Origin: Catenuloplanes niger
GTDB taxonomy: Bacteria; Actinomycetota; Actinomycetes; Mycobacteriales; Micromonosporaceae
Direction: 5' to 3'
DNA length: 64,000 nucleotides
Assembly: GCF_031458255.1 (NCBI RefSeq)
Contig: NZ_JAVDYC010000001.1
Coordinates: 6,829,001-6,893,000 of the forward strand
In this document: positions 17,866-59,579 of the stretch, piece by piece
How positions within the stretch are numbered: position 1 is the first letter of the stretch
Layout: each line of letters opens with the position of its first letter
Program-made: the position numbers and the translations under genes
The notes under the pieces: model-generated
Seen by the model: the letters and a program-made list of their open reading frames with translations, nothing else
The model's database searches: none
What the model was told of the DNA's origin: nothing

Positions 17866-18447
17866 ATGGTGAACAGCACGTCCTCGATCCCTCGCAAGGA
17901 CGCCGGGGACTCCGAAGCGACGGGTGAGACGCCGGAGGCGGCGCTCGAACATCTGCAGCGGGTGCACCGGCCGGTGCTGCTCGCCTACGTCCGGCAACTC
18001 GTCAAGGGCGATCTTCACTGGGCCGAGGACGTGGTCCAGGAGACGATGGTGCGCGCCTGGAAGAACCCGGACGCCCGGATGAAGGACGGCCGGTGGAGCC
18101 GCGGCTGGCTGTGCACGGTCGCCCGGCGGATCGTGATCGACAACATCCGCGCGGCCGCGGCGCGCCCGGCGGAGGCGCCGGACGAGTTGATGCCGGAGGT
18201 GGCCGCGGCCGAGATCGACCTGGCGGCCCGGCTCGACGACCGGGAGGTCCGGGCCGCGATCGCGGTGCTGCCGGAGCGGCTCCGGACGGTCCTGGTGGAG
18301 ATCTTCTACCAGGAGCGGACCGTCGCGGAGGCGGCCGAGGTGCTGGACGTGCCGGCCGGGACCGTGAAGTCGCGGACGTTCTACGCGTTGCGGGCGCTGC
18401 GGGGTGCGCTGGACGAGCGGGGCTACAAGCGGCATGACCAGGACTGA
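17866..18447 (+). CDS. ECF RNA polymerase sigma factor 2
   Basis: 193-aa ECF sigma-70. Region 2: VLLAYVRQLVKGDLHWAEDV followed by VQETMVRAWKNPD; then WLCTVARRIVIDNIRAA. Region 4: LPERLRTVLVEIFYQERTVA with the HTH EAAEVLDVPAGTVKSRTFYA. The ATG at 17866 lacks a strong ribosome-binding site; a GTG lies directly after it. It is preceded by its likely anti-sigma factor gene, and its last 14 bases overlap the gene for a LysM/pseudo-subtilisin protein. The three genes probably form one envelope-signalling unit. It is a candidate for driving the TGAAC-N17-CGT promoters of the giant operons. Confidence 0.92.
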   Translation: MVNSTSSIPRKDAGDSEATGETPEAALEHLQRVHRPVLLAYVRQLVKGDLHWAEDVVQETMVRAWKNPDARMKDGRWSRGWLCTVARRIVIDNIRAAAARPAEAPDELMPEVAAAEIDLAARLDDREVRAAIAVLPERLRTVLVEIFYQERTVAEAAEVLDVPAGTVKSRTFYALRALRGALDERGYKRHDQD

Positions 18448-21604: not shown

Positions 21605-21656
21605 CAGCACAACACGTCGGACACATTGGAGCACTGAACAATTAACAAACCGGGGA

Positions 21657-21681
21657 TGAACTGGCCCTGAGCGACTCCCGT
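21657..21681 (+). promoter_or_regulatory. ECF-type promoter of giant operon 1
   Basis: TGAAC (21657-21661), 17 bp, CGT (21679-21681), 57 bp before the ATG. An AT-rich element TTAACAAAC (21642-21650) sits 6 bp upstream of the -35, and CTGA (21667-21670) lies inside the spacer. All of this is repeated with identical spacing at operon 2, and the -35/spacer/-10 also at operon 3. GAAC/CGT with 16-17 bp spacing is the canonical ECF pattern. Confidence 0.7.
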
Positions 21682-21737
21682 AGTCGAGCTGCGACGGCGC
21701 GTGCACGATCCGGCGGCAGCATGAGGGGGAGAACGAC

Positions 21738-24700
21738 ATGGCCGATACGGGGTCCCTGTCGAGCCTGTGCCCGGACGGGCGGCTCATCGTCACCGGGAAC
21801 GGCGCGCTGTTCCACCCGTACCCGATGGACGTGCCGGTCGACATGGTGGCCGTGGTCCGGGCGCTGCAGGCCCGGCGGGAGAACGGCCCGGCCTTCTTCC
21901 TCTCGCACGAGGCGCTGACCGACCCGGCCGCACTCGGCGCGGTCGAGCGCGTCGCCAGTGACCTGCTGCCCGGCCAGCAGGCGCGGATCGCCGCGTATCC
22001 GGTGGCGGGCACCGAGAAGACCGCGGTGCAGACCTGGCTGACCGCGGCGGACACGGTCGGCGTGCCGATCAGCGTGCCGTACGAGTCGTGGATGGACCTC
22101 TCCCCGCGGGTGATCCGGGTGAACCGGGACGGCCACCCGGCGCCGCGGGGCGAGTTCGTCCGCGTGCTGCCGAAGGGGCTGACGCTGATGCGGGCCGCGC
22201 TCGGCACCGCGGTCACGCTCGCCGCCGATCCGGGCCGGACGCCCTGGCAGCGGCTCGGGGAGCTGGTCGCGAGCGTCGCCGCGCGCCGCGAGGAACTGCG
22301 GGTGCCGCGCTCCGGCGCGATCGCCGGCGCCAAGCGCTGGCAGGCCGGGTTCCAGCTCGCGGCCGGCGTCGCGCTCGGCCTCCCCGGCACGTCCGCCCGG
22401 GACCCGCTCACCGCGGACGACCTGCTCCGGCTGTGGAACCACCCGGCGCCGGTGACCGACGCCGAGATCGTGCCCGAGGCGCTGCTGGGACGGCCCGGGC
22501 AGATCGCGCTGGTCCGGCAGGCGGACCAGGTGCACTGGCTGGTGTCGCACGACGGCGCGCTGTGGTGGGTGAACCTGGCCGCGGACGGCGACCCGATCCG
22601 CCGGTTCGATCCGGCGAACCCCCTGGACCGGGCCGAGCTGACCGCGACCGGCACGTCCGTGCGCCTGCTCGACCCGGCGGCCGTGCCGCGGCCCGCCGCG
22701 GTCGGCCGGCCCGACATGTCGGGCTGGCAGCCGATCGGCGACCCGACCGCGGTGGACCAGCTGCGCACGCAGTTCCCGCAGCTCGCGGGCCTGAACCAGG
22801 ATCGGACCACGGCCGACGAGGACTGGCTCACGAACTGCGTCATCTCGTCGGTCGCCGCGGTCTCGCAGATGCTGGATCCCGGCCAGCAGTACCTGTCCGT
22901 GCCGATGGGACTGAGCGACGTGGACGTCCTGTCGTTCGTCCTCGACGGCGGCACGCTGAAGGACACCGACCGGATGGCGACGATCGCGGCGTCGCTGCCG
23001 GTCGAGGGCGCGACCGGATTCGTCATCGTCGGCGCCGAGCAGGGCAAACCCGGTCACGCCTTCGTGGCCCGGCGGGTGCGTCCGGTGCGGGCCGGGGCGA
23101 CCGACCCGTTCGACGGGATCGCGTTCTACGACAGTCAGACGCACCGGCAGGCGGCGGTGCCGGCCGACCCGACGCGTCTGCGGTTCGCCGGCGTCCCCGG
23201 CACCGGCGTGGACACCGCGCCGATCGACGCGGCCCCGAAACAGACCCCGGCGGCGGTACGCCAGAAGGCGTGGACCGGCGGCCCGGAGATCGCGGACGTC
23301 GCCGGTGCCGGGAGCGACCCGCTCGCGACCGTCCCGGACCAGGCACGGCCCGCCACCCGGTTCAACGGGCTGACCGCGGCCGCGAACCAGCTCTCGAACC
23401 CCGGGCCGCCGGTCGCGGTGCCGCCGGTGATGCCCGGCCCGTTGAGCCTGAACGGGTTCATCGCGTCGTACCGCACCGCGCTGAACGACATGATCACCCG
23501 GCGAGCGGCCGCGGAGAACGCGGCTCAGGCGCTTCGCGACGCCTGGGACGTCGTCGACGACCACGAGCAGCGCCTCGCCGACGGCCGCCAGGCGATCCGC
23601 GACCTGGAGCGCCGGCTCGCCGCGGCCGACCTGGCGATCCACCGGGCGCAGGGCGAGGCGCGACTGGCCGAGGCGGACACCACCCCGGCCGCGCCGCAGC
23701 GGCGGGCCGAGGCCGAGACCGCGCTGGCGCAGCGCACGGCGCAGCGGCGGGACCTGGCGACCAGGCACGACGACGCGATGCGGGCCCAGCGGGACCTCGG
23801 GACCGCCTTCTCCGCCGCCCTGCGGCAGCTCTCCCCGCTCGACCAGGCGTTCCGGCAGGCGGACACGGCGCTCACCCGGGCCCGCAACCACGCCGAACAA
23901 CTGCGGATCCTGACCGACAACGCACAGAACTTCCCGGTCGAGGGCACCCGGATGACGTCCGCCCAGGCGTCGTCGATCCGGCGCGAGGCCCGGCGGCTGG
24001 TCGACACCGTGCTCGCGCCGCAGGAACGGACCGCGGCCGACACGGTCACCAGCACCGCCGGGCGGATGACCAGCCTCCGCGACCCGGCCGGCGGCGGCAC
24101 CCAGCCCTCGCTCGCGGACGCGGAGCGGGCCGCCCGGCTCGTCGACGACGCGGGCCGGACCGTCCAGGCCCGACACCAGGAACGCCAGGACGCGGCGGTC
24201 CGGCTGGCCGAGGCGATCGGCCGGCTCACCGACGCGCGGGTCACGGCGCAGGCCAAGGAGGATGCCGCGACGGAGTTGCGGGCCGCGGCCACCGCCGCCG
24301 CCGAAGCGCTGAAGGCGGCGAAGGACGGACACCAGGCGCTGGACAAGAAGCTCACCGAAGCCCGGGATGAGCTGGCGAAGCTGCTGCAGGCACACCGGGC
24401 GAAGCCGGTCGGGCCGGAGCCGTCCGACCCCGAGATCGCCCGCATCGAGCGCGCGATGAAGGAGAACACGGACGCGCGGCCGATGCTCGAGTCCAAGGTG
24501 GCCGGCGCGAACAACCGGCTCAGGGCCGCGGAGCGGGAGGTCGGGACGGCGACCGAGGCGCTTCGCCGGGCGCAGGACGCGTATGCCGACGCCGACGCCG
24601 CGCACACCGCCGCGGTGGCCGCGGAGACCGCGGCGGAGGGCGCGCTGGCCGGCGCCCGGACCGCGCTGCGGAACCACCCGGCCCCCGGCGAGATGCTGCA

Positions 24701-27700
24701 GCGGCTCTTCGCCACCGGCTGGGATCTGCAGCAGGCACGGGCCGAGCAGCGGGCGGCGGCGCAGCGGCTCGAGGTGGCGCGCGCCCGGCTCGCCGCGCTC
24801 GACACCCGGGTCACGGCGCAGGAGGACCTGACCCGGTTCGGCGACCGGGACGACCCCGGCGGCGACAGCGCGCACAGCTACCTGAGCGTCGGCTCGGAGC
24901 TGTCGATGACCCCGGCGGACGCCGACGCGGTCCGGCGGATGGTGCACCAGCGGGTCGATCCGAGCGTGCACCACACCCAGCGCGAACAGATGCTGGAGGA
25001 GATCGACTGGCTCACCACGCAGCTCGCGCTGACCGGGGACCTGCCGTCCGCGACCGGCAAGTCGGGCAGCATCCACGTGATCGGCACCGGCGACCACGCG
25101 CTGCGCGTGACGATCCGGGCCAAGCTGATCCGCAACGAGGAGCCGGACGCGCTGCCGGACTACCCGACGCCGATGACGAACCACGGCGAGAACCGCAAGT
25201 ACCACGCGTCGTCGAACACGACCGGGCAGCAGACGTCGACGGTCGGTGAGTACCCGGTCAGCATGCAGCCGTTCCTGCCGATCAACTGGGGTCCGTTCCG
25301 GATCTTCAACCTCGCCGGGACGCTGCGCCTGACGCACAACAAGTACACCCGGATCACCAACACGGACCTCGGCGCGGGACAGGGCACGGTCGAGCGGCTG
25401 CGCGGTCCCGGGTACGCGCACTCGTACACGGTCGAGTGGACCGCGTCGGCCGAGTCGGCGCACGCGCCGCTGCCCGACCCCACGGTGCCGGTCCCGGCAC
25501 CGCCGGGGCCCCCGATCCCGCTGACCACCGGCACGAACGTGCCGGTCCGCACCGGGCTGACGGTCAACTTCCCGGAGCACATGGCGATGCCGGAGCGGCC
25601 GGCGAACACGAGGCCGCCGGGCGAGGCGCAGCTGGCGAACGAACTGATGTCGCTGGACACGTTCCACGACCCGGCCGGCGTCGGCAAGCACATCCTCGGC
25701 GTGCTGCCCCGCCTCGCCGGATTCACCGGCGCGCGGCGCGCGTCGTTCCGGCTCAGCCCGGAGTCGCAGCGCGAGGTGCTGGAGTTCAGCAGCTTCGGCA
25801 ACACCCACAGCAGCCTCTCCCGTCTGCGCCGGGACGGGCTGCTCTCCAACACGCTGCGCGACGCGAACGGCCGGGAGATCGGGATCCTGCGGCTGAAGGC
25901 GGTGCCGGCACCGGGCCAGGACAACCGGATCGTCACTCAGACCACCAACAACACGCTCGAGTTCTACCACCAGATCCGGGTGCAGGAGCGCGGTTCGGCC
26001 CGGCTGCGCAGCGGTGCCGAGGGCAGCGTGAACGCGGGCCTGACAAGCATCCTCGCGCCGATCGAGAAGACCACGGTGGCCGGTACCTACGGCTCGGTGA
26101 GCGCGTCGGTCACCGGCGCGGCCGGACACGGCGTCACGGTCGGCACGAACACCGGCACCAGCTCGGAGATGGGCCGTGGCCTGCGGTCCGCGAAGGACGC
26201 GACGCCCGGCTACCCGGGCGGCATCACCCGCGGCATGGTCGCCGACCTGGACACCCGGTTCACCGTGGAGCTGCTGGTCGACGGCCGCACCGACGCGGCC
26301 CCGGCGCAGCGCGAGACCTGGACCGGGCGCGCCGCGGACCAGGAGGGCATGCGCGCCCGCTGGGTGCCGTACGCGCTGACCAACGCGGGCGGCATGCACC
26401 TGACGCACGGCATGGCGGACGGTGACGCACCGGGCCTGGTCATCTACGAGAACCTGCGGATCGAGGGACGTGACTACCCCTCGCCGCTGCCGGCCGGCAG
26501 CGCCCGCCCGCAGTCGGTGGACGACTGGGTCCTCGCCCAGCTGCGCATCAACAAGTTCCTGGCGGCCGAGGGCGCGGGTGACGCGAAACAGGCGCTCAAC
26601 CACCGCCGGCTGCTGGACACCGCCTCGAACTTCTACCGCGAGGCGATGGCCGACGACCTGCGCGGTGACGGCATCTGGGTACCGTTCGAGAAGACCACCA
26701 AAACCGGCATCGAGCGGCTGTGGGTGCGGTACTTCGCGCGGCAGGTGGCCGGGACCACGCCGGTGCACCACGGCAGCACCACCGAGATGCGGATGAACAC
26801 GTCGGTGGACTCGTTCTTCCGCAGCGAGCGGGTCCGGTCGCACTTCACCACCAAGCGGTGGGCGGCGAACGTCAACGGCAACATCCCGCTCAAGAAGATG
26901 CCGGACGTCCCGGACGGCACGCCCACGGCCGACGTGCCCGCGATCATCGAGGACAAGGCGGCCAAACACCCCTGGAACAGCTTCACCATCAGCGGTACGC
27001 CGATCGGTCACTCGGTGGAGAACTCGGTCTCCACGGTGAACGGTCAGGTGACGTCCCGGTCGGTGATCCTGTCCAGCAGCGCGGGCCAGCCGGTGCACAA
27101 GTTCACCGTGGACATGCAGCTGGACGCGGAGATCTTCCACGAGGGCACGTTCACCCCGTGGAAGACGTACTCCCGGGAGGCCGGCACGACCGAGCGGGCC
27201 ACCATGGACATCTGGGCGCCGGACATGCGCGTCACCGCGACCCCGCAGACCCGCCCGCCGCTGCCGACCGGGTCGCGTCCGGCCACGTCGGCCGACCAGG
27301 CGCGGCTGCGGTCCGGGCCGGTGCTGCCCAACCTCTCCGGCGTGACCGGCGTGCGCGGCTCCGCGGCGCTCAACATCGCGTTCCGGCAGGACACCCGGGG
27401 CCTGTTCGGCGAACGCCGCCACGCGGGTCTGATCGGCCACCACCCGGGCAGTGACGCGACGCTGACCGGGCAGGCCCGGCGCGCGTTCCTGACCGAGGCG
27501 CGGCTGATCGCGGCGATCGACCCGATCATGCGCAGCTCGCACTCGACCGAGCAGGCGTTCGAGGACGGTGCGATCTCCGTCCCGGAGGGACGCTACGAGC
27601 TGCAGGCGTACGTCAACGCGGTGCCCCGCCTGATCCCGGCCCGCCCGGGCGCGCAGAACAGCACGTACGTCGAGGACGGCAACCAGCTCTTCGACAGCCA

Positions 27701-30700
27701 CGAGCTGATCCGGCAGGGCAACACCGACCGCAACCACAGCGTCGGGCCGGGCGTCGTGTTCCGCTACGGCAACGCCGGCGGGCAGGTCCGGGCCGGCCGC
27801 GGGCACCGGGAGAACGCGTCGGTCACGCACACCGGCATCGACTACCGGATCAACAACTACGAGCTGCCGGTCCACTCGGTCGCGATCCCGGTCACGTTCG
27901 TCGGCACGTCCACGTTCGCGGCCCGCAACGTGGCGAGCAGCACGTTGTCCGTGTTCGGCGGCAACCCGTCGCAGAAGAGCACGTTCGCGCTCGACGTGGC
28001 GGACGCGATCGAGTCGCTGGTCAGCGTTAACGACCTGGCCACGCTCTGGCACAGCCTGGAGACGACCTGGCCGCACGACGCCACCCGCCCGGTGGACACC
28101 GGCCGGACACTGGCGGACGGCACCCGGGTCGGCCCGGAGTTCGTCAGCGGCCTCGACGACACACTGCTCGGTCAGGTGCTGGACGCGAAGCGGAGCCTGT
28201 TCCGCGCGCCCGGGACCGCCCCGGACGCGGGCGAGGAGGTCTACTACCTGCCGCGGCGGATCTCCGGCCGGCAGGGCCTCGGCGACGCCTCCGTGCTCGA
28301 CGTGCAGCTCGAACCGGCCCCGGTCCCGGCACCGCCGCCACCCGCCGCCGGTGCCCCGCCGGCCGCCCCGCCCCCGCCGCCGGTGCTGGCCCGGGCGCTG
28401 TTCGACGAGGCCGTGTCGCAGCTGAACGCGAAGCTGCCCGGCGTGCTCGAGCCGGGCTCGACCACCTACAAGGCCGGTCTCTACGAGGCGGTCGGCGTGC
28501 TCACCTCCTCGGTCGGCAGCCGCACCGGGGTCCGCCGGTTCTTCAGCGCCGGGGACACCGGCGAACCGGTCCGGCTCGGCCGGGTCTCGCAGGTCACCAC
28601 CGTGCACGCCACGGCCGGCGCGATGGTCGTCGAGGTGGAGACGCTGGCCCGGCCCGCGGACCGGTACACCGCCACGCCGCCGGCCGGCGACCCGACCGAA
28701 CTCTTCGGCGTGCCGCACCGGGGTGCGGACCTGGAGATGCACGGCATGTCCGGCAAGCACAAGCAGCGCAGCCAGAACGACAGCGACTACAGCTGGGCGC
28801 TGCGGGTGGCCGGCACCGGGCACCCGGTGCCGAGCAGGAGCGACAACGTCCGGCTGACCGGCGCGACCGGGGCCGGTGACGCGTACCGGCAGCACAACAA
28901 GGGCAGCCGGCACCGGGAGCAGCAGGTGCACCGGTTCGTCACCAAGTCCAGCGGCAACCTGGCCCGCACCACCGTGCCGCTGGAGCTCGGCGTGCAGGTC
29001 ACGGTGACGCCGCTCAAGGAGTGGGTGATGTCCTCGGCCACGTCCCGGCTGAGCGCCGCGTGGAACGAGGGCGCCCGCCGGCTGAACTGGGTGCGCACGT
29101 CGCCGGGCGTGACCTGGCACCGGGCGAACGTGTCGCTGGAGTTCATGAAGGAGGACGGCAGCACCGACCGGCTGACCACCGCGCCACCGGCGAACCAGAA
29201 CCGCCCGGCCACGCTGTTCGACGCGCAGCCGGGCGGCGCCGTCACCCCGGCCGCGACGCAGCCGATGACCGGCACGGCCGCGCAGCCGCACTTCACCGCG
29301 GCCGAGGTCGGCACGTGGGCGCCGTTCGACGGGCTGAACGAGCGGTTCCGGATCAGCCGGTTCGGCGCGGCACACCTGATGGCGGACGCGGTCGGGACGG
29401 TGCTGCCCGGCGCGGACCCGGCGGAGCTGCAGGAACTGCTGGACAACGAGGTCGGCGGCGCCAACACGTACGCGCTGATGAGCCGTGGTGGCGTGGACCT
29501 GACCGTGCTGAACAACGTCGCCGGTCTCGCGCACGAGCTGGACCTGGAGGTCAAGCCGGTGAAGGCGAGCGCGTGGCGGTCGCCGCTGGACACGTACGTG
29601 GACGCGAGCGGGACGCCGCAGCAGTTCAGCCCGGGCGAGCTGACGCCGGGCGTGTTCGAGTACTTCCCGATCTACGCGACCAGCACCACGACCACGGCCA
29701 GCACCGCGCAGGTCTACAGCCTCACGCTGTCGATGATCCAGTCGTACAACCTCGGGTCCCGGGCACCGGCCGCCGAGCAGCAGAGCGGCGTCGAGCGCCG
29801 GCAGGCCGTGCTCCCCGGTGGCGTGCCGACCGCGCCGACCAACCCGAGCGGTGGCGGCTACTACAACATCCGCCCGGAGTACGGCGCCGCGCCCGGCAAC
29901 CAGACGTTCATGAACGTCACCTATCCCGGCATCACCGTCCCGGGTGGCAAGAAGACCAGCTCCGCGGCCACCGTCTCGCACGTCGACCGGCGCGGCCAGC
30001 GCATCGTGCCGCACGCGGCCGGCGGCACGGACCAGACCCGGGTGCCGTACGTGCTGCGCGAACGGGACGTGCTGTTCGAGGTGAAGGGCACGACGCCGCG
30101 CGACTTCCACGAGCTCGGCGAGCTGATCCAGATGGCCGGTGACAAGGTCGGCGAGATGGCCAGCGACGGCCGGATCACCCGGGCCGCGGTGCGGGTGGGC
30201 GCCAGCCAGGGGCTCGCGGACCGGATCGGCGAGAAGATCAAGGAGATCGCCACCACGGCCCGCGGCGCGGTGGACCCGGCGCCGGTGGTCAGGACCGTCT
30301 ACGTCGCCTCCACCGTGCAGGTGCGCATCCCGCTGGCCGAGCTGCAGCCGTCCCGGCCGGTCCCGGACGCACGGCACCTGGGCAGCGACCGCACCGACGA
30401 GGCGGACGGCAGGGCCGCCGCGCTGCCGGACGCGATCCCGGGCTGGACCGCGCTGGTCGGAGAGTCCACCACGCTCCAGACCGGCAGCCTGGTCGGCGGC
30501 CGCACCACGTCCGTGATCATGCAGGAGCTGGACGCGATCCGGTCGGACCCGGCCGCCGGCACGGCCCCGCGCCCCGCCAACGTGGTGCTGATCGGCGGCG
30601 ACCACCGGCGGGCCGGCGCGGACCTCTCCCGGGCCACCGGTGGCTGGGTGCTGGCCCAGGCCCAGCACATCGACCGGTACGCCGGACTCACCGACCCGAT

Positions 30701-32279: not shown

Positions 32280-32291
32280 TACGGGGGATCC

Positions 32292-34319: not shown

Positions 34320-34359
34320 CGCCGTTAACCATTGAATCGACTTTTTAACAAACTGATCG

Positions 34360-34384
34360 TGAACCGATACTGACGGGGAGTCGT
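34360..34384 (+). promoter_or_regulatory. ECF-type promoter of giant operon 2
   Basis: TGAAC (34360-34364), 17 bp, CGT (34382-34384), 57 bp before the ATG. The upstream TTAACAAAC (34345-34353) and the in-spacer CTGA (34370-34373) stand at the same distances as at operon 1. The gap from companion gene 1 is 121 bp with no evident terminator. Confidence 0.7.
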
Positions 34385-34440
34385 AAACCGGCGTTGCGTG
34401 GCGCGTCAGCACGCGGACGATCCGGCGAGGGGAAAAGTGC

Positions 34441-45291: not shown

Positions 45292-45302
45292 CCGGGGGAG
45301 AC

Positions 45303-47267: not shown

Positions 47268-47324
47268 GGTTTTCGGACACATCGTACAAACCGTGAGGGC
47301 CATGAAGTGTTTGTAAAACCTGTG

Positions 47325-47349
47325 TGAACCAGCCGCGCTGACGAGACGT
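47325..47349 (+). promoter_or_regulatory. ECF-type promoter of giant operon 3
   Basis: TGAAC (47325-47329), 17 bp, CGT (47347-47349), 43 bp before the ATG at 47392. The upstream element is looser (TTTGTAAAAC at 47310-47319) than at operons 1 and 2, and the leader is 14 bp shorter, but -35, spacer length and -10 are the same. Confidence 0.65.
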
Positions 47350-47391
47350 TAAGCAGGATCCGTACGCCTCGCAGCACAGTTGGGAGACGGC

Positions 47392-50300: not shown

Positions 50301-53300
50301 CGGCTCGCGGCGCTGGGCCGAGGTGGCCGGCGGCCGGGCCAACTCGGAGAACTTCGCGTTCACCGGTGACTGGGCGATGAACGAGTACGACTGGGACGCC
50401 CGGGTGATCGTGCAGGTCGACGGCCAGCCGGTCGCCGCGCACGACCTCGGCCGGCACGTGATGGCCCTGTCGCCGCAGCTGGTCTCCACGCACCGGGACG
50501 CGGTGGACCCGATGACCGTGGGCGAGGCGACGCGGGTGCGGAACCCGCACGCGCTGCTCGCCCAGGACTACGTGGTCACCGCGGCCGACTTCGACGACCC
50601 GCTCGTCGAGCTCGGCAACCGGCTGCGCAGCGACCCGGCGTTCAAGCTCGACGCCACCCAGTCCGCGCGGGTGGTCGACAAGATCCGGCAGGACTTCCTC
50701 AACCCGCGGGCGGTCAAACAGCAGAACCAGTGGTGGACCGCGGACGCCGGGGTGTCGCCGCACATCTCGATGGGGCTCGGTAGGGGCCGGCACCTCGAGG
50801 GGCACCTGCGGACCGGCGGCAAGCTGATCGACCTGCGCCGGATCGTCGAGACGCCGGACGCGATGATCCGTAACGACGCGGGCGGCACCACCAGCCGGGC
50901 GGCCGGGCGCGGCGGCGGCTCCGTGGTGGGCGGCCGGCTCGGCGCCGAGTTCCCGCTCAGCATCGGCGACCACCTGGTGCTGCCCCGGCTGGACGTCCTC
51001 ACGCTCAAGATGAACCGGGACGTGGACCGCTCCGCCAGCATCGAGTCGTCCGCGGCGTACCTGCTGGTCCGCGGCGACAAGCTGATCCGGTACGCGGCCA
51101 CGGTCGCCGCCGAGATGACGCTGGACTCCAACCGCGGCCAGCTCACCGTGCGGCACCCCACGGTCATCGAGCTGGCCGTGCCCGCGAAGTACGCGGCCGC
51201 GTTCGAGGAGCAGCTGATGGCGAACCCGCTGCTGCGCGACGCGGTGGTGCTGCCGGAGGGCACGCTGACGCTCACCGGGAAGGGCACCAAGCGGATCAGG
51301 CCGTTCCCGCGCGGCGGCGTCACCTCGCCGGCCGAGCTGCGGAGGCTCACGGCGACCCACCGGATCGAGGTCATGCTGCCCGAGGGCCGGAACCTGGACG
51401 GGACCTGGCAGTGGGCGGCGGGCGCGGGCGTGCCCGTCTCCCGGCCCGGTGACGCCTACCAGAGCGTGAACGACGTGCCGGACATCCGCTACCAGGTGGA
51501 CCCGGCGAACGCGGACCGGATCCTGGGCGCCACCGTCTTCACCCGCTCCGCCGATCCGGCGCACCCGGAGCCGGTCTCGGCCGAGTACGTGCCGAACCCG
51601 GCGTACGCGCCCGGCGGCCCGGCCGGGCGCGCGGCGGCGGGCGCGGACCCGTGGGGTGCGCACGGCGTCCGGGACGCGGTCGACCTGTTCGCGCTGGCCC
51701 GGAAGGGACCGATCGAGCTGGCCGTCCGCGGCCGGGCCGCCGCGCCCGTGTTCGCCGACCTCACCGAGGGCCTGCGGAGCCTGTCCGTGCTGGCCGGCCG
51801 GGTGCGGCTGCGCGGCGACGGTGACCCGGTGACGCCCGGCGGGCCCGCGTTCCGCTACCTGGTCGACGACCGCGGCCTGGTGCTCGGCGCGATCCCGCTG
51901 GGCGCCGGCGGGCCCGGCACGCTGGTGCCGAACCCGGCGCTGTACCTGCCGGCGCAGCAGCTCACCACCGTACCGGCGGACGACGCCCTGGCATCGGTGC
52001 GGAACTTCCTGGACGGGCTGGACGTGCCCGAGTACGCGCAGGTCCAGCTGGCCGACGGGGTGCCACCGGCGATCGTCGCGGCGCTGTCCGCGCACCCGCG
52101 GGTGGAGGTGATCGACCACGACGGCACCCGGCTGGCCGGGCAGACGCTGCCGGCCGCGGTACGGGAGGGCCGGACACCGGCCGGGATCCGGCGGCACGTC
52201 GTGTCCACGGACGGCTGGGTGAACGGCGACCTGAAGCCGCTGGACGGGCCGACCCGGGAACCGTGGGCGATGGCCGCCCGGACCGGCCTGGGTCCCGGCG
52301 TGATGAAGGAGATGCCGGGCGCGGAACTGATCTTCGGGGACGCGCTGCGGCTGCTCCAGCACCAGATGAAGAAGGTCGGCCGGACACTGAAGCGGGAGAA
52401 CCGCACCAAGCGGTTCGCGGAGCTGGCCGCGAAGCTCGGCGTGCCCGGGCTGCGCGGGTTCCAGCGGTCCATCTTCGACGGCGGGATCTCCGACTCGTAC
52501 ACGATCGGCGATCTGACGTTCCGGGTGAACCTGACCGGCTCGCTGGGCGACCTCCGCGAGATCCGCACCGTGCCGGACTACCTGCTCGACACGAAGCGCA
52601 CCGGCCGGTCCGGGCTCACCGTCCGGGAACTGCTCGGGTACCAGATCGGCGCGCGCGTGGACGGCTCCGGCCGGGCCAGCATCAAGGACTTCTTCGGCCT
52701 GCGGGTCCGGGTCGTCGACCTCCAGGCCGCGTTCGACCGCGAGTACGCGAACCTGGTCGGCCTGACCCAGGCCGGCGCGCGGCGGCGCAAGGTCCGCGGC
52801 ACGCTCACCGAGTTCGACTACGACGTGCGGTACCAGCTGACCGTGTCGGTGACGGACAAGAAGGGCAAGGTGCTCACCGACGTCAGCACCCGCACGTACG
52901 GCGGCGAGGGGTTCCATGCCCCGGTCCGGGTCGCGGAGGAGGACCTCGCGCCCGCGCCCGGCTCCGCGTACAGCCAGGAACCGCTGCCCGGCGAGCGGGC
53001 CCCGGTCAGCCGGCTGACCGCGGACGAGTCGCGCGCGGCCCGCTCCTGGCTGGCCGGCGGCGAACCGGACGGCTACCTGTCCACCGTGGACGGCAACACC
53101 GAGGGCATGTACGTCTGGCTGAACCAGGTCGGTGCGCTGGCGGAGTCGGTGCAGGCGTTCATCGACGCGGTCGACGACGTGCCCCGGGACACGTCCGCGA
53201 CCACCGCCCTGCTGCGCGACCTCACCCCCGGCGGAAGCCGGCTGTCGATGGAGAGCGGCGTCGCGGACGGCATCCGGCCCGACTACCTGGAGCCGCGGGC

Positions 53301-56300
53301 CAGCGACCTGATGACCCGCCTGGGCATCGTGGTGCCGCTCAGCCGGGGCCGGGACGGCGCGGTCCGCCAGCTCCGGGTCCGCCTGCTGCCGGCGAACGCG
53401 CGGTTCACCCGGCCCACCGACGGCGCCACCAACCGCGACTACCAGGACTCCGGCGTGCAGAGCGGCGGCAGTGAGGGCAACGCGTTCGGCGCGACGGCCA
53501 CGGCCGGCGTCGGTGGCATCTTCCAGTGGGGGCCCGGCGCCGCCGCGGTGCCGGACGACGGCGACGGCGCCAAGGGCAGCAGCTACGTGCCCGGCATCGA
53601 GCCGGGACCGGGCCAGCAGGTGCCCGCGGCGAGCCGGGGCGCCGACCACGTCAACCTCGGGCTCGACGCCGCCGCGTCCGGCCGCTGGGGGGTGACCACG
53701 TCCGCGCTGGACGGCGGCACCTCCACCACCCGCGCCGGGTACGAGGGCCGCTCCTACAACCACTCGGCGGACGCGATCTACCTGATCACCTACGAGCGCT
53801 GGTCGCGCGGCGGGAAACTCACCAGGCACGAGCACGACCTGCGCGTCGCGCACGGGCTGGACGCGTCCACGCCGCACGTGACCGCGAAGGAGCTGGGACT
53901 GCCGATCCCGGCCGCGGACGAGCGGGTGATGCCGGACAAGACGGCCGAGCTGATGCCGATCCACAAGGAGCTGGCGTTCGCCGCTTCCCCGGTGGAGAAA
54001 CTGACCGCGTTCCGGACCAGGAACGGTACCGAGCGGCAGGACGTCCTCGCCGTGGTCAAGGACCGCCTCCGCCGGATGGACGTGGCGATCGACGACCCGA
54101 CGCTCTCGCTGGCCGTGGAGAACCTCTTCCGGACCAGCGCGATCAAGGCGCACTACCGGGCCATCCGCCGGGACGGCCTGGAGGCGCTGATCACGTTCAA
54201 CCGTGCGATGGGCGGCGTCAAGCGGATCGGCATCCGGCTCACCGCGGAGGACGGGCCGCTCAGTTACCGGCGGCCGCGCCCGGACGTGAAGGGCACGATC
54301 AGCAAGGGCGGCCTCGACCAGCAGGGCCGGTCCAGGACGGTGGACCGGGGCATCAAGGTGGGGCCGGCCGGCGACGCGCGGTTCGGTCCCGGCGAGGCGC
54401 GGATTGCGATCGGCGCCGGCGCGGAGGCGGAGTGGGGCCGGACCACCGCGGAGAACCGCACCACGTCCGACCAGCCGTACCTGCGCGTGTCGCCGACCAA
54501 CCCGGACAGCCAGGAGTTCGGCGCGCACACCGTGCTCAAGCTGGAGTTCTTCGAGGCCTCCGACCTGCCGCAGGCGATCGAGTCGGTGATCGCGCTGGGG
54601 TCGGCCACGGTCAAGATGTTCGACACCGTCTCGGACGGCTGGCTGCGCACGCTGCTCCAGGACACGGTGACCGGGACGCGGAAGCCGAAGCACACCGAGA
54701 CGGTGCCGGGCCGGTTGCGGCTGATCACGCCGAGCCACCTGACCCAGGAGCGGCCGGCCTTCGAGAACGTGCCGCACCTGCGCAGCGAGCTGCCGGAGAC
54801 GGTCGCGGACATCCGGCCGGCCAGTGTGGAGGTGTTCAACCGCAACCCACCGGCGGACGGGCCGGCCGACCTCCGGGCCGACCTGGCCACGACCGCCCGG
54901 CTGGCCCAGCACGTGCAGGGGCTGGAGATCTTCGGCTTCGACCGGTTCACGAACTGGCTGCCGACCACCCGCATGCCCGGTGCGGAACGCTACGACACCG
55001 GCAAGACGCCGCCGCGGGTGCCCGGCTACGCGTCGCTGTCCACCGCGCTCACCTCCGTGAAGGCGGCACTGAACAGCACGAACGTCACCACGAACATCAC
55101 CCGGCTGCTGACCGGCAGCTACACCATCAAGGGCGAGGGCGCGGACGAGTTCACGGTCCGGGCCGTGCTGCGCGGCGCCACCTGGCTGTCCCGCGGCGAC
55201 TACCGCGCGACGAACATGCCGATCAAGGTGTCGTCGCGGGCACAGCAGAACAACGAGCGGTCCGGCCTGAACATCCGGCCGGTCGAGGTGGAGGCGGGCC
55301 CGCGGGAGGGCGACCAGAAGCTGATCGCCGGCACCGGGCCGGCCGTCGGCGTGGGCCGCAGCGGCGGGGCCTCGAGCGGGGCCGGTGACGTGGCGATCAC
55401 CTACGAGAAGAAGGCCGGCGACTACGACTACTTCTGGTTCGACCTGACGCTGATCGGCACGTCGGCCAACGGCCGGGCCTGGGTGCGCAGCGACGTCCCG
55501 CACGGGCTGATCGCGCGCATCCCGTCGGAGAAGGCCGCCGAGGTCTTCGGCCCGCGGCCCACGCTCGGGATCATCGACCAGGCACTGGTCCAGGCGATCG
55601 CGGACGACGCGCCGCCGGCCTTCGTCGCGGACCGGCGGTTCATGGCCGAACGGCTGGCCGGCAACCGGCCGGCCGCGCCGAACCTGATCCGGCGGGCGGA
55701 GCTGGACGCGGCCGTGCAGCGGCTGCGCGACTGGATCGCGGCGACCGAGATGCCGGCGCCGGTCCCCGGCGCGCCACGGCCCGCGGTGACGCCGGAGGAC
55801 TGCGTGATCCGCGCGTTCGGCGCGTTCATCGCGGTGCACCGCCGCACCGCCAACGGCACCACCGACACCGACCGCGTCGGGCACGGCGCGGCCGAGGACC
55901 TGGCCACCTCGCTGCGCGGCGACTTCGCCCGGCTGACCGACCCGGACATGCTCTGGCAGTACGCGGTGAGCCGGCCCGGCAGCATGATCGCGGTCCGGGT
56001 GCCGCCGCCGTCCGGGGGCATGTCGCACCTGTTCTGGGTGATGTCGATCGGCGGCGGCCGGATGATGTGGGTGGACGGCCAGCGGCACGGCGCCGCCGGC
56101 CGGACCGCGTCGATCGGTACGCCGCTGGACAACCTGCGCGGGCTGGTCACCGACCAGCACGCGCAGATGTTCCGGAAGAACGGCACCGAGGTGCTGATGC
56201 TCGACGAGCGCGGCCGGGCGGTCGACCTGCGGGCCGCGCTGCCCGGCGCGCTGACCAACCGGGCCTCCGGCGACCGGGTGGGCCGGCGCGCGTCCGGCGA

Positions 56301-57543
56301 GTTGCCGCAGCAGCGCGTCGTACCGTCGCTGGATCTCGCGGCCGTCCCGGTCCCGAAGATCAAGCCACCGGTCCCGCCGGTCCGGCAGGCCGCTCCCGCG
56401 GTCGTCGCCCCGGACCGGGAGATCATGCCGGTCGGTGACGTCGGGACGGCATCCGCCCGGAGGCTGCTGGAGACGATCACCACGGTGGCGCGCGGTGTCG
56501 CCGGCCCGCCGCTGCGGGTGGTCAACCTGGACGGTCCGGCGGAGACCGCGCTGGAGGCCGTCCGGCGGCTCGACGAGACGCTGCGCAACGACGCGTGGCG
56601 CGGTGTCGCGCCGATCGTGGTCGCGAACATGGGCACCGGCCCGGTCGAGCGCGCGTTCGCACTCGTCCGCCGTGCACGGGGCGTGGTCACCGTGCAGGAG
56701 ACGATGGCCGGCTACGACCGGGTCTGGCAGCTGCTCGGACCGGGCGCGATGCAGGCGGACACCATGGTGGCCGAGCCGACCGTGCGGCTGTTCTCGACGG
56801 CCGGCGAGCTGGTCCGCCCGGCCCAGGGCATGCTCACGCCGGAGCTGGCCGAGTGGATCAGCGCGCCGGACTGGGCCGCGACCGAGGCGTACCACCGGGA
56901 GCGGGTGTCGGCGCTGCACACGCCGGCCGTCGTGGCCGAGCTGCGCCGGGTGATCGCGGAGAACCCGGCCGACCGCCGCCTGCCCGGCCTGCTGCTCGCG
57001 CTGGAGACCGGGCGGCGGGCCGGCGGCGTCCCGGACACCCGGCTGACGCCGCGCGCGGTCTCGTTCCTGGAGTCGGAGCCGGCCTACGCCGGGGGCCCGG
57101 TGCCGCCCACGTTCGTCTACGACTACCTGGCGGGTGCCGGGCGTGGCCGCCGTGATCGCTTCACCATGGACGGTCTGCTCTTCCAGCTCATGCTGGCCGG
57201 GCAGCTGAGCCCGGACGAGACGCTGTCGCTCGCGCGCACCGGCGCGGCGAACCGGCTCGACCGGGCCAACGTGACCGTCTTCGAGATGGTGGCGGACCTG
57301 CTCGCGGTCGCGCCCGACCGGTTGCGCACCGACTCGGGCGCGGTCACCACGGAGTTCGTGGCCCGGGCCGGCCGGGTGGCCAGCACGCAGACCGGCGTGC
57401 GGCCGGAGGAGTGCCTCGACCCGGTCGACCGGACCGCCTGGGTCGGCCGGCTGGACGGGCTCCGCGACGGCCTTCGGGCCCGCGGTGACACGTCGCGCGC
57501 GGAGATCCTCGACGCCATCACCTACGCACTGTCGAACTGCTGA
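47392..57543 (+). CDS. Giant protein 3 with C-terminal Tox-PL (papain-like) domain
   Basis: 3383 aa, start ATG 47392 with GGGAG 5 bp upstream (a TTG 12 bases earlier is dismissed). The layout follows giant 2 but lacks its long proline-rich tract. N-module 1 to about 310 (LCPDGRLIPIDNG); short linker; helical segment about 400-740; hydrophobic stretch about 940-972 (LPLGLITVLAVADEVLQG); and a large body. The papain-like domain has Cys2804 (TPEDCVIRAFG), His2879 (GGMSHLFWVM) and Asp2895 (MWVDGQRHG). The C-module is about 3007-3383 and ends YALSNC. Four Cys by eye: 14, 2804, 3341 and 3383. Shared landmarks with giant 2 include LGPGVMKEMPGAELIF and GADEFTVRAVLR, so the two arose by duplication. 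No secretion signal is visible. Confidence 0.85.
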   Translation: MSGTGTLDAFAALCPDGRLIPIDNGVYFHPYPMGTPVDLLELQRAMNVGTRAGGPAFFMDPRGLSDVAALETVQRVTRDLLGDLGAGARITTVSAGGAERTWLTAADLVGVPITVLDAPAAQTSARLVRDGDLLHVLPKGLAAMRAVLSTAAELARDRRTPLWTRLERLAERVAEAREEHRVPRSGSVSGAAMWQAGYQLAAGLVLGAPPGTNLAALAGAVQPISEAALLGLFGGEPRTPGSLTGAPLDAPALVHVPGPDGGPGTVRWLVPRDGALWWVDLAADPADAFRRFDPADAANPPAGTTVRVLSPAPATPATSVLDTPTSLVDALIDAPLGRAAAGALQPTRPAPRPDTTGVTPGAEGPEELVRAQVEAVGDALRNGAPEQQFAALDELLTHRLPPIRDRFETARAGHDATVRSAGTAIDAHDARIAELDTRIPAEEARVAAADTAFTTARDARVAAEQARAALTAQIEAARVTRGRAFEALSRATPADHAELSRASVAASRYVDHLARQAVAGDADVVRRRAAEEAARVRAADLRAGVATLRAEHGRIPALRAEEVRRRTDAAAARDTAAANRDLLDVHLAHLRDVAADWARLELGDARRLDDRMAAVEADGSALRQAHRDASAEIDVIAARGAAITVEDVGRLAYLHHLAGVRAAARAGHAETADELAEAYGGYLGTLTRYSGAPAVDGEADRLAGRQLTLALWTTLADRFDAAQPAAETARTEAMNLARSEIEGARRTGRSPDLAGLITRLMDPDGRLPGESWHAASETAGGLRRTLSATAGDVATLRARIEAATAPSAPWFLRERNMLGDSHLREIAALDPADVRTLTAQVRPSVGDSARPWRADGADIESWLTETLGSRKAEDWEKLIDGGGVTGEFNGKHVRVAVTLVNERFRRARPVRPGRTGQDVELQLRFGEKSYSRSRGGSRSWNLPLGLITVLAVADEVLQGVVGPVLRLFTGGSRRWAEVAGGRANSENFAFTGDWAMNEYDWDARVIVQVDGQPVAAHDLGRHVMALSPQLVSTHRDAVDPMTVGEATRVRNPHALLAQDYVVTAADFDDPLVELGNRLRSDPAFKLDATQSARVVDKIRQDFLNPRAVKQQNQWWTADAGVSPHISMGLGRGRHLEGHLRTGGKLIDLRRIVETPDAMIRNDAGGTTSRAAGRGGGSVVGGRLGAEFPLSIGDHLVLPRLDVLTLKMNRDVDRSASIESSAAYLLVRGDKLIRYAATVAAEMTLDSNRGQLTVRHPTVIELAVPAKYAAAFEEQLMANPLLRDAVVLPEGTLTLTGKGTKRIRPFPRGGVTSPAELRRLTATHRIEVMLPEGRNLDGTWQWAAGAGVPVSRPGDAYQSVNDVPDIRYQVDPANADRILGATVFTRSADPAHPEPVSAEYVPNPAYAPGGPAGRAAAGADPWGAHGVRDAVDLFALARKGPIELAVRGRAAAPVFADLTEGLRSLSVLAGRVRLRGDGDPVTPGGPAFRYLVDDRGLVLGAIPLGAGGPGTLVPNPALYLPAQQLTTVPADDALASVRNFLDGLDVPEYAQVQLADGVPPAIVAALSAHPRVEVIDHDGTRLAGQTLPAAVREGRTPAGIRRHVVSTDGWVNGDLKPLDGPTREPWAMAARTGLGPGVMKEMPGAELIFGDALRLLQHQMKKVGRTLKRENRTKRFAELAAKLGVPGLRGFQRSIFDGGISDSYTIGDLTFRVNLTGSLGDLREIRTVPDYLLDTKRTGRSGLTVRELLGYQIGARVDGSGRASIKDFFGLRVRVVDLQAAFDREYANLVGLTQAGARRRKVRGTLTEFDYDVRYQLTVSVTDKKGKVLTDVSTRTYGGEGFHAPVRVAEEDLAPAPGSAYSQEPLPGERAPVSRLTADESRAARSWLAGGEPDGYLSTVDGNTEGMYVWLNQVGALAESVQAFIDAVDDVPRDTSATTALLRDLTPGGSRLSMESGVADGIRPDYLEPRASDLMTRLGIVVPLSRGRDGAVRQLRVRLLPANARFTRPTDGATNRDYQDSGVQSGGSEGNAFGATATAGVGGIFQWGPGAAAVPDDGDGAKGSSYVPGIEPGPGQQVPAASRGADHVNLGLDAAASGRWGVTTSALDGGTSTTRAGYEGRSYNHSADAIYLITYERWSRGGKLTRHEHDLRVAHGLDASTPHVTAKELGLPIPAADERVMPDKTAELMPIHKELAFAASPVEKLTAFRTRNGTERQDVLAVVKDRLRRMDVAIDDPTLSLAVENLFRTSAIKAHYRAIRRDGLEALITFNRAMGGVKRIGIRLTAEDGPLSYRRPRPDVKGTISKGGLDQQGRSRTVDRGIKVGPAGDARFGPGEARIAIGAGAEAEWGRTTAENRTTSDQPYLRVSPTNPDSQEFGAHTVLKLEFFEASDLPQAIESVIALGSATVKMFDTVSDGWLRTLLQDTVTGTRKPKHTETVPGRLRLITPSHLTQERPAFENVPHLRSELPETVADIRPASVEVFNRNPPADGPADLRADLATTARLAQHVQGLEIFGFDRFTNWLPTTRMPGAERYDTGKTPPRVPGYASLSTALTSVKAALNSTNVTTNITRLLTGSYTIKGEGADEFTVRAVLRGATWLSRGDYRATNMPIKVSSRAQQNNERSGLNIRPVEVEAGPREGDQKLIAGTGPAVGVGRSGGASSGAGDVAITYEKKAGDYDYFWFDLTLIGTSANGRAWVRSDVPHGLIARIPSEKAAEVFGPRPTLGIIDQALVQAIADDAPPAFVADRRFMAERLAGNRPAAPNLIRRAELDAAVQRLRDWIAATEMPAPVPGAPRPAVTPEDCVIRAFGAFIAVHRRTANGTTDTDRVGHGAAEDLATSLRGDFARLTDPDMLWQYAVSRPGSMIAVRVPPPSGGMSHLFWVMSIGGGRMMWVDGQRHGAAGRTASIGTPLDNLRGLVTDQHAQMFRKNGTEVLMLDERGRAVDLRAALPGALTNRASGDRVGRRASGELPQQRVVPSLDLAAVPVPKIKPPVPPVRQAAPAVVAPDREIMPVGDVGTASARRLLETITTVARGVAGPPLRVVNLDGPAETALEAVRRLDETLRNDAWRGVAPIVVANMGTGPVERAFALVRRARGVVTVQETMAGYDRVWQLLGPGAMQADTMVAEPTVRLFSTAGELVRPAQGMLTPELAEWISAPDWAATEAYHRERVSALHTPAVVAELRRVIAENPADRRLPGLLLALETGRRAGGVPDTRLTPRAVSFLESEPAYAGGPVPPTFVYDYLAGAGRGRRDRFTMDGLLFQLMLAGQLSPDETLSLARTGAANRLDRANVTVFEMVADLLAVAPDRLRTDSGAVTTEFVARAGRVASTQTGVRPEECLDPVDRTAWVGRLDGLRDGLRARGDTSRAEILDAITYALSNC

Positions 57544-57557
57544 ACCGGGGGAGAACC

Positions 57558-59579
57558 GTGGAGCTACCGCTCACCATCAAGAACTCGGAAGCGATCTGCA
57601 TCGACCACATGTTGCCGACCGCGACCGGTGCCCACCTGCACACCGAGTCGATCTCCACCCGGAACCGGGACACCCGGCTGCGGGGGATCATGAACCTGCC
57701 GGCGATGGACCGGTTCGCCTACCTGACGTTCGGCAAGGAGATCTCGGACGCGCTGGGCGACGCCACCGCGCTGGGCGCCGACCGGGCGCGCGCCGTGCTG
57801 CGCCAGTTCCTGGAGGGTGTCCCGATCGAGTCCGCGGACCGGTACGTGGTGCGCCTCGACCCGGACGGGCTGTCCCTGGCCGACGTCGCGGCCCGCGCCG
57901 ACCGGATCGGCCTGCCGGTCGAGGTGGCCCGGGCCGGGCTGCGCGCCGGCCCGCCGGTGGACCCGCACCGGCTGCTCGGCGTGGACGGCGGCATGCGGCC
58001 GGCCCCGGTCGACGGTGCGGAGTTCGTGCGCGTGATGCCGTCCCGGCACCGCGCGGCGGACGCCTACGCGGACGTTCCGCCGGAGATGCGCGACCTGGCG
58101 CTGCGCACGCCGTACCCGTGGGCGCGGATGATCTTCGGCGCGGACGGCGTGCGGCTCGGCGTGCCCGCGCCGCTGGTCCGGCACGCGTACGCGGACACGC
58201 TGCGGCGCCTGCCCCGGCCGCTGCGGCCCGCGGACGTCACCGGCGCACCGGCCCGGGACCTCGCCGGGTACGGCGACCTGCTCGCCGCGATGGCGGCGCC
58301 CGGCACGCGCGCGTTCGTCACCGTCACCGCGCCGTCCGGGGGTACGCGGACCGTGCTCGCGCTGCACGACGAGCACGGCGTGTCCGTGGTGGACCCCGGC
58401 ACCGGCGACGCCGCGCTGCTGCCGGCCGCGCCGGACCGGATCGCGTTCACCCCGGCCGAGGGCGCCGCGGACCTGGCGTCCTGGCTGGACGAGATCCGGG
58501 CCGCCGGACCGGCCGCGCCCGCCCGGCCGATCCACCGCACACCCGCCATCCACGCGCTGCCGATCGTCGGCACCGGCCGCAGCGTCGACGTGGTCGGCGC
58601 GCCCGGCGCGCTGAGCGAGCGGTTCCGGTCCGAGATCGCGGCCGCGGCCGAGGGCGTCGACGCGCCGGTGGTGGTCGTCGCCACGGACCGGAGGTTGCGC
58701 GGGCCGTCCACCCGGCAGCTCGCCAACCTCGAGTGGCTGCTGTTCCAGCACCGGCAGAACCAGCTCGCCGGCGGCGACGCGCCGATCGTGGTGATCCACG
58801 GCGACGCGCCGCCGGGCGTCACCGGCCTGCTCGGCGGGTACGACTTCGCGATGGTGCACCAGCCGCGCACCTCCGGCGGGCAGGGCCTGAACCTGGACAA
58901 CCTGTGGTCGGCCCGGGACGCGGCCGGCAACACGGTCGCCGCGCCGGTCCGGACGATCACCTCCGACCTGCTGCGCAAGGCGGGTGCGGCGCGGCCCCCG
59001 GTCACCTCCGCCGGTCCGCCGGCCGACGAGCGGCTGATCACGTTCCTCACCACGCCGGTCAGCGACGTGAGCGCGATCCGGCAGGTGCTGGACGAGCACG
59101 GGTCCGCGCTGAAGACGCTGCTGCCGCAGATCGGCGCGCTCGACACGGTGCAGAAGGACCTGTTCGCGGCGTGGCAGGCGATCCTGCGCATCGAGCAGCG
59201 CGGCGACACCGCGCTGGCCGGCAGCGCGTTCGACTACCTCGGCGCGGGTGAGCAGCGGCAGCTGCGGGCGCTCGCGGTGGTGCCGTCGGTGCTGGAGAAG
59301 GACCCGGAGACGCGGGGCGGCGCGCTGACCGACCTGATCGACCTGACCCGGGGGACGCTCGACGACGGCGCCAGCCGGGCGATCCTGGACGCGATCCGGC
59401 GCGGCGTCGACGGAGCGCCGGACGAGGAGCTGAAGCACCTCATCTACCAGCACTCCGTCTACCTGCCCGAGCACGGCCGCACGGACTGGATCAGGCAGCT
59501 GCGCGAGCTGGCCGCGCAGCAGCCCGACCGGACCGCGCTGTTCGAGAAGATCGCGGTCTACGTGGAGACCTGTCCCTGA
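57558..59579 (+). CDS. Companion protein 3 of the giant locus
   Basis: 673 aa, GTG start with GGGGGAG upstream, 14 bp after giant 3. N-terminus AICIDHMLPTATGAHLHTES; RADRIGLPVEVA; LHDEHGVSVVDPGTG; C-half DVVGAPGALSERFRSEI, APIVVIHGDA, GLNLDNLWSA, FAAWQAILRIEQ, VYLPEHGRTDWIRQL; end VETCP. Two Cys by eye, at 14 and the penultimate residue. It is the last gene of the tandem locus. Its TGA directly abuts the stop codon of the opposing transporter gene (TGATCA), leaving no room for a terminator between them. Confidence 0.8.
   Translation: MELPLTIKNSEAICIDHMLPTATGAHLHTESISTRNRDTRLRGIMNLPAMDRFAYLTFGKEISDALGDATALGADRARAVLRQFLEGVPIESADRYVVRLDPDGLSLADVAARADRIGLPVEVARAGLRAGPPVDPHRLLGVDGGMRPAPVDGAEFVRVMPSRHRAADAYADVPPEMRDLALRTPYPWARMIFGADGVRLGVPAPLVRHAYADTLRRLPRPLRPADVTGAPARDLAGYGDLLAAMAAPGTRAFVTVTAPSGGTRTVLALHDEHGVSVVDPGTGDAALLPAAPDRIAFTPAEGAADLASWLDEIRAAGPAAPARPIHRTPAIHALPIVGTGRSVDVVGAPGALSERFRSEIAAAAEGVDAPVVVVATDRRLRGPSTRQLANLEWLLFQHRQNQLAGGDAPIVVIHGDAPPGVTGLLGGYDFAMVHQPRTSGGQGLNLDNLWSARDAAGNTVAAPVRTITSDLLRKAGAARPPVTSAGPPADERLITFLTTPVSDVSAIRQVLDEHGSALKTLLPQIGALDTVQKDLFAAWQAILRIEQRGDTALAGSAFDYLGAGEQRQLRALAVVPSVLEKDPETRGGALTDLIDLTRGTLDDGASRAILDAIRRGVDGAPDEELKHLIYQHSVYLPEHGRTDWIRQLRELAAQQPDRTALFEKIAVYVETCP

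Follow-up and report, generated by a model that had tools for sequence, protein, structure and literature searches.

Introduction

In the genome of Catenuloplanes niger, a member of a soil genus that is not known to include pathogens, three giant genes stand in a row, each closely followed by the gene of a much smaller companion protein, and the question arises what such pairs are made for. The window analysed here is a stretch of 64 kb (bases 6829001-6893000 of the 9.74-Mb single-contig genome), to which all positions refer, including those of genes beyond its end; genomes used for comparison are named by our own handles (G203 and the like). The original prediction, made from the DNA alone, described the three giant/companion units as a functional, possibly combinatorial system. 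From our point of view, they are somewhat probably pairs of effectors, with the giant as A and the companion as B, that have a divergent type VII secretion system (T7SS) of their own, because the paralogy of the two proteins, their genomic linkage to T7SS genes and their cysteines all point in this direction.

Results

The giant/companion units

The six large genes lie head to tail on the forward strand between 21738 and 59579. Giant 1 (3513 aa; 21738-32279) consists of a head (21738-22697), a cargo and a tail (31107-32276), as does giant 2 (3616 aa; 34441-45291; head 34441-35400, tail 44119-45288). Giant 3 (47392-57543; head 47392-48351, tail 56371-57540), whose cargo is homologous to that of giant 2, was called from 47380, but the ATG at 47392, which yields 3383 aa, is the more likely start. 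Companions 1 to 3 (675 aa, 32292-34319; 654 aa, 45303-47267; 673 aa, 57558-59579) begin 12, 11 and 14 bp after their giants. The G+C content at third codon positions (GC3) is 0.96-0.98 across all six genes, which therefore represent real coding frames, and the layout is as predicted in its coordinates, protein lengths and gaps.

Giants and companions as paralogues

In a profile comparison of 24 A proteins with 12 companions, the A head aligned with companion positions 10-323 (probability 96.9, E 1.5e-10) and the A tail with positions 367-689 (probability 97.9, E 5.6e-13), the best probability in controls with reversed companion profiles being 0.4. At the level of sequence, the companion is a cargo-less paralogue of the giant, whose head corresponds to its N-terminal half and whose tail corresponds to its C-terminal half. 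That head and companion might contain a degenerate form of the papain fold (HD...D without cysteine) found little support, the head of giant 2 and its own papain region aligning at a probability of 9.6 only.

Which partner carries the cargo differs between genomes. Cargo-free A proteins of 704-752 aa are present in six genomes outside the genus (G193, G234, G306, G330, G388 and G422), and a cargo-free A-type frame of 706 aa also occurs inside it (G200). In G422, G330 and G193, the cargo-free A gene (747, 704 and 736 aa) stands 21, 12 and 24 bp before a giant of 3231, 2791 and 2657 aa, respectively. By BLAST, the G422 giant is homologous to the companion at both of its ends (companion residues 85-310 and 367-674), the G330 giant at its head only and the G193 giant nowhere; in G234, a giant convergent with its A gene matches the companion tail. 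Since the A head and tail correspond to the companion halves and the G422 giant matches at both ends, A and the B protein of G422 have their cargo joint in the same position. A single homologous joint between head and tail takes up cargo of widely varying length, in A here and in B in some genomes of other genera. As A is small and B cargo-bearing in some of these genomes, the conserved unit is the A-B pair with its one insertion joint. Outside the genus, A is the giant, as here, in G437, G448 and G210. The cargo-free A gene of G234 is convergent with a tandem of giants (3047 and 2917 aa; G234:C1:3023333-3041330) whose last eight residues are identical.

Of the 22 companion loci in the five searched genomes of the genus, 18 directly follow a giant tail (exceptions: L043, L047, L055 and L057), and within the genus companions are hence not mostly found without giants, a case that had been named as speaking against a paired system. 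Not counted were hits that are short or cover a tail only, the second half of any split locus, and a partial match of companion type next to another giant, at G203:C1:5472425. A repeat of the gap measurements by script agreed, with a wrong frame chosen in L036. Scanning contigs with a single companion query gave no match, and the A3 query gave one locus, in Catenuloplanes japonicus, with a split companion and no giant tail upstream. In another family, open reading frames of 2,733 and 2,250 aa (L025, L027) contain two copies each of companion positions about 236-323, and this repeated segment therefore seems to be a mobile domain.

Constant ends and exchangeable middles

The three units, described earlier as a 38-kb system, belong to a system that does not end at the window, and make up one end of a stretch of about 210 kb with eight giants (2,031-8,053 aa) that have a head of about 320 aa and a tail of about 390 aa in common. 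The genes of the surroundings were called by a simple GC3 script, so that their starts are uncertain. Downstream of the window units, the same head and tail are found in g75 (4952 aa), g95 (8053 aa), g96 (2378 aa), g98 (2578 aa) and g111 (2031 aa), with ordinary genes interspersed and with g76 and g97 as additional companions.

Giants 2 and 3 are homologous throughout (46% identity), and their middle recurs in g75. With giant 1 they have only head and tail in common: the middles alone reach a profile probability of 0.7, by which homology over the whole of all three giants was rejected, and whole-length profiles align at probability 100 because of the common ends. The giants had been called clearly paralogous, which is true over the full length of giants 2 and 3 and, for giant 1, of head and tail only; what had been taken for three full-length diverged copies are constant ends with differing cargo. 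A similarity to the middle of giant 1 (27%, 3e-67) extends over about 1,100 residues of a giant of 11,794 aa that is encoded in G448.

The tail of a further giant, g86 (about 7,400 residues), is of the companion type (30%, 2e-8), and its head looks WXG-like by eye. Two small proteins, g94 (167811-168191) and g99 (209606-209950), consist of a tail only with a cysteine near the end; each lies near a strict copy of the promoter motif described below, and they are possible chain caps or inhibitors.

Linkage to a type VII secretion locus

A T7SS locus is located at 118.9-129.5 kb, about 60-70 kb beyond the three units, and encodes an EccA-like AAA ATPase fused to a beta-helix domain, EccC, a WXG100 protein with its neighbour and a YukD/EccD protein. 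EccC (g82, 1356 aa) matches PF01580 (FtsK/SpoIIIE) in three stretches (2.7e-82), and the WXG100 protein g83 matches PF06013 (2.8e-10); its neighbour g84 has no Pfam match and has relatives beside those of g83 in other genomes. EccD (g85) carries a ubiquitin-like domain (YukD, 3.4e-18), its EccD transmembrane domain scoring 25.5 bits, below the cut-off of 30. Together with a mycosin-like subtilase, a type VII component, inside the window (18404-19786, forward strand; Peptidase_S8, 3.4e-21), these genes overturn the earlier statement that neither a secretion apparatus nor a WXG protein is present.

The identity of EccC amounts to 97, 96, 87 and 84% across the four remaining genomes of the genus, and to 80, 58 and 57% for G437, G448 and G210, respectively. 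In all nine giant-bearing genomes, which were selected for having giants and include the fragmentary G033, the nearest A or B gene lies 6-21 kb from an island-type EccC. This EccC lineage, defined by at least 50% identity and more than 1290 bits (next best score about 1017; two best candidates scored per genome), occurs in 22 of 250 genomes of the family, that is, in 9 of 12 tail-positive versus 13 of 238 tail-negative ones (Fisher 1e-8, in a test that ignores common descent and takes from the handles that the 250 genomes were included in the tail scan of 300). For seven of the 13 EccC-positive, tail-negative genomes, the surroundings of EccC were viewed over about 20 kb: a giant of 2909 aa that includes a segment resembling the companion lies in G392, and a 3914-aa frame with a cysteine at its end in G232, and nothing giant- or companion-like was recognised in these neighbourhoods of the other five.

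The mycosin-like protein of the window lacks catalytic residues, since Asp, His and Ser of the triad are all replaced. Among ten aligned mycosin-like proteins, which are encoded within or next to the loci of this T7SS lineage, Ser is lost in all and His in eight, by reference to the canonical catalytic motifs; subtilases of this kind comprise the window protein, g89 and relatives in seven other genomes. The EccA-like/beta-helix fusion (g81, 120444-123191) has near-full-length relatives near EccC in G437, G448, G200, G193, G222, G313, G392 and G213. Just before the T7SS locus, g78 (108602-118804) encodes a 3400-aa protein with YD-like repeats by eye and no Pfam match; it adjoins a WXG-like gene on the opposite strand and has relatives at the same loci in other genera.

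Few cysteines at fixed positions

Each window giant contains four cysteines, against about 26 expected at the 0.75% of the non-giant called genes (P <2e-7), or about 21 at the 0.60% of twelve chosen non-giant genes of the stretch. They stand at residue 11-14, at the presumed papain-like nucleophile (367, 3008 and 2804), about 45 residues from the end and at the last residue. Companions have two, at residue 13-16 and at the end or at most three residues from it, in 11 of 12 aligned proteins (14 and 674, 14 and 653, and 14 and 672 in companions 1 to 3), and the twelfth, from G448, has five. All 24 A proteins possess the head cysteine as well as one within the last three residues, and 21 of them the one about 45 before the end; the 11,794-aa giant has only 3 in total. 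Of nine giants of the g86 class, those of G422, G210 and G448 have a single cysteine, which is the last residue, g86 has two and the rest have more, counts for which some starts are doubtful and the G437 member is only partly covered by the fetched stretch. In these three, a single terminal cysteine makes an internal disulfide impossible, and the common terminal cysteine must therefore have a role between molecules or one that involves no disulfide.

On contig 24 of G210 (165392-284138, loci L146-L153), an open frame extends over 39,582 aa and is interrupted by neither a stop nor an N. Its product, which may rank with the longest proteins of bacteria, looks WXG-like at the N-terminus by eye, matches PF15644 near its end and has 60 cysteines versus about 297 expected. 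Other long open frames measure 14,755 aa (G200:C1 near 1259767), 12,360 aa (G202:C12 near 183933) and about 11,800 aa (G448:C1:62438-97822).

Cargo domains

Apart from coiled-coil or chance matches, searches of Pfam, NCBIfam and PDB assigned no family to the giants and companions of the window (giant 3: Pfam only), and PDB profile searches with A2, A3 and A4 gave no match at E up to 1. Likewise, no known N-terminal trafficking domain (WXG, LXG, PAAR and others) was found in them by Pfam or, giant 3 aside, by NCBIfam. As to the predicted papain-like triad, the order C...H...DxQ can be read by eye in each giant, at about 22800-23205 (C367), 43438-43770 (C3008) and 55777-56106 (C2804), all on the forward strand, but no profile matches there; an automatic alignment lined up the H and D and not the cysteine, which is one of the giant's four.

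Known toxin-type domains had been thought to be missing, which does not apply to the sibling giants: g95 contains Gln_amidase (1.7e-10) and Gly_transf_sug (6.1e-5) and g96 Gln_amidase (3.2e-6), all over the cut-off. Cargo is swapped between constant ends, with these two domains seen only in sibling giants.

Promoter and sigma factor

The prediction of a promoter of the extracytoplasmic function (ECF) type before each giant is confirmed by the motif GAAC[CT]-N16-CGT, which lies 80, 80 and 66 bp upstream of giants 1, 2 and 3 on the forward strand (GAACT-N16-CGT at 21658-21681; GAACC-N16-CGT at 34361-34384 and 47326-47349). Across 123 script-called genes in 264 kb, it is found at most 200 bp upstream of all eight giants of the stretch versus 3 of 115 other genes (Fisher 1.6e-10), the starts of four giants having first been shifted to a later start codon. 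In other genomes, it precedes six of ten giants tested, namely the six of G203, G201 and G202. The strict form TGAACC-N16-CGTC has 37 sites genome-wide, eight of them in one 61-kb part of the island (0.23 expected) that was picked after the hits were seen; none of these eight is in the window, where all three sites are one base off. An explanation by sigma-70 promoters was rejected, as the part scanned (46000-60500) contained no such promoter and two terminators (1.5 expected).

A candidate regulator of this promoter is the ECF-type sigma factor encoded at 17866-18447 on the forward strand (Pfam Sigma70_r2/r4). Its orthologue in G203 is 97% identical and also stands beside the array, and in G451 and G422 relatives with 54-62% identity are encoded no more than about 20 kb away from A/giant genes.

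Distribution and selection

The array is syntenic in the sister genome G203, and pairwise omega against it is 0.52, 0.59 and 0.48 for giants 1 to 3 and 0.43 and 0.60 for companions 1 and 3; the neighbouring sigma factor, GGDEF and mycosin-like genes have values of 0.15, 0.07 and 0.36. Synteny and the omega of the giants bear out a functional, multi-copy paired system. The tail of giant 3 is 63% identical to that of its orthologue and the cargo 87%, which we take as a sign of tail exchange. Giant tails are patchy in the family (16 of 300 genomes). A wide distribution was rejected, as we found one positive genome among 394 of the class (the own genome; two candidates scored per genome) and five among 200 of the order (the own genome, G033 and three weak single-domain cases; five candidates scored each).

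Discussion

If the units are A-B effector pairs, head and tail would fold into one body that is recognised by the T7SS of the island, and B would be exported with A as an obligate partner. The cargo would be the business part, with the papain-like motif in the window and the Gln_amidase and glycosyltransferase-type domains in the siblings. As the mycosin cannot do so, the papain-like domain may cut the giant after export, and the C-terminal cysteine could couple chains by disulfide outside the cell, for which EspA of ESX-1, a T7SS substrate that forms a disulfide dimer after secretion, provides a precedent (PMC2891827). Carried further, and then doubtful as a whole, this would amount to a new export architecture, in which a head-tail clasp of the paralogues A and B takes up, at its single joint and in either partner, a cargo between 1,000 and over 11,000 residues long, a T7SS with a dead mycosin exports it, the papain domain performs a self-cut, and chains of A, B and g86 type are joined via their C-terminal cysteines and released in the reducing cytosol of a target.

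Several observations weigh against effector pairs of this T7SS. The heads of A and B match no known T7SS signal, the WXG-like head of g86 is such by eye only (no Pfam match; NCBIfam E of 0.024 for the G210 relative, below the cut-off), and EccB was not found in the island, both genomic copies matching PF05108 being more than 1 Mb away. Three of the 12 tail-positive genomes (G306, G377 and G388) do not have the EccC lineage, the promoter motif is absent upstream of the other four of the ten giants tested elsewhere (those of G200, G437 and G448), and, of the eight giants of this genome, three are not immediately followed by a full companion. A genome-wide search with the Gln_amidase (Tox-PL1) profile PF15644 yielded three places (g95, g96 and a distant one), none in a window giant. 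No immunity gene was found and none is seen between the three units, the companion and the tail-only g94 and g99 remaining as possible candidates. Finally, when species of the genus are compared, their cargo proves orthologous and colinear, a finding that fits stable proteins and effectors alike.

The last two points are also what one would expect if the giants were T7SS-exported structural or surface proteins, for example coat fibres of sporangia, spores or hyphae, that are cross-linked by their terminal cysteines and matured, with no killing involved, by the papain-like domain. The position of the cysteines almost exclusively at the ends would suit such end-to-end cross-linking, and the purifying selection (omega 0.48-0.59) and synteny agree with it. 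However, paralogues with the same ends carry wholly different cargo, siblings contain toxin-type domains, the tails are patchily distributed and omega lies well above that of the sigma factor and the GGDEF gene, so that we regard structural giants as unlikely, albeit the least unlikely of the alternatives. It is a good deal less probable that the giants act inside the producing cell, in defence, stress or as a giant enzyme complex, with the T7SS genes as mere neighbours. The missing classical export signal, the lack of any T7SS domain found in A or B and the three genomes without the EccC lineage would fit; against this stand the linkage in several genera with the same accessory genes, the tail in common with the g86 class and the depletion of cysteine, as in the 11,794-aa giant. 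Cysteine depletion is common in exported proteins. Toxin-immunity pairs suggest yet another role for the companion, that of an immunity or inhibitor protein, and its small gene indeed directly follows five of the eight giants in this genome, as it follows a giant tail at most companion loci of the genus. Nevertheless, the companion is a colinear paralogue of the constant ends and of nothing that would recognise a variable cargo, the roles swap in some other genomes, and giants of the g86 class likewise have a tail of the companion type, which makes this the most improbable of the explanations considered.

Searches of one open-access library showed no described match to the A-B system, which is not proof of absence. 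The NCBIfam 'lonely Cys' giants are giant actinomycete proteins, and a cysteine near the C-terminus, sometimes the only one, is a likeness to them; no NCBIfam model of that name matched the scanned proteins (giant 3 was outside the scan), and the phrase was not found in any paper of that library. Actinobacterial T7SS polymorphic toxins and giant multi-toxin proteins have been described, with Tox-PL1 and Tox-Glycosyltransferase listed with T7SS and with internal copies of Tox-PL1 (signature NC-H-DxQ) read as toxin or auto-processing peptidase (Zhang et al., 2012; PMC3482391). Our proteins resemble these toxins as actinobacterial giants and, by eye in the window giants, in the C-H-DxQ order of Tox-PL1. 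The described toxins usually have an N-terminal WXG domain and diversity in their C-terminal toxin domains; in contrast, our giants vary in the middle between two constant ends, the heads of A and B match no WXG model, the partner is a paralogue without or with cargo, and no immunity gene was found.

The secretion locus is similar to mycobacterial ESX systems (T7SSa) in its FtsK-type EccC, EccD, WXG100 and mycosin-like protein, and differs from them in that no EccB was found in the island, the mycosin-like proteins are without catalytic residues, an EccA-like/beta-helix fusion is present, the putative substrates are 2,000-12,000 aa long and a use of disulfides would have to be assumed (PMC2891827; PMC5082899). 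In mycobacteria, the mycosin is needed for secretion and its protease activity is dispensable (PMC5082899). Consecutive giant genes, five of 3,000-8,000 aa, are likewise known for the surface proteins Giant1-5 of Apilactobacillus kunkeei, a likeness by description only, and the accessible part of that report mentions no A-B pairs or T7SS (PMC12863079).

Overall, the route by which giant proteins leave Gram-positive cells is an open question. T7SS substrates are usually seen as small helical hairpins or as toxins behind a WXG or LXG head, and a pair that takes up thousands of residues at one joint with few fixed cysteines would offer a handle on what a T7SS recognises. As such, the A-B system may bear on why a mycosin can be dead and on whether substrates join covalently outside the cell.

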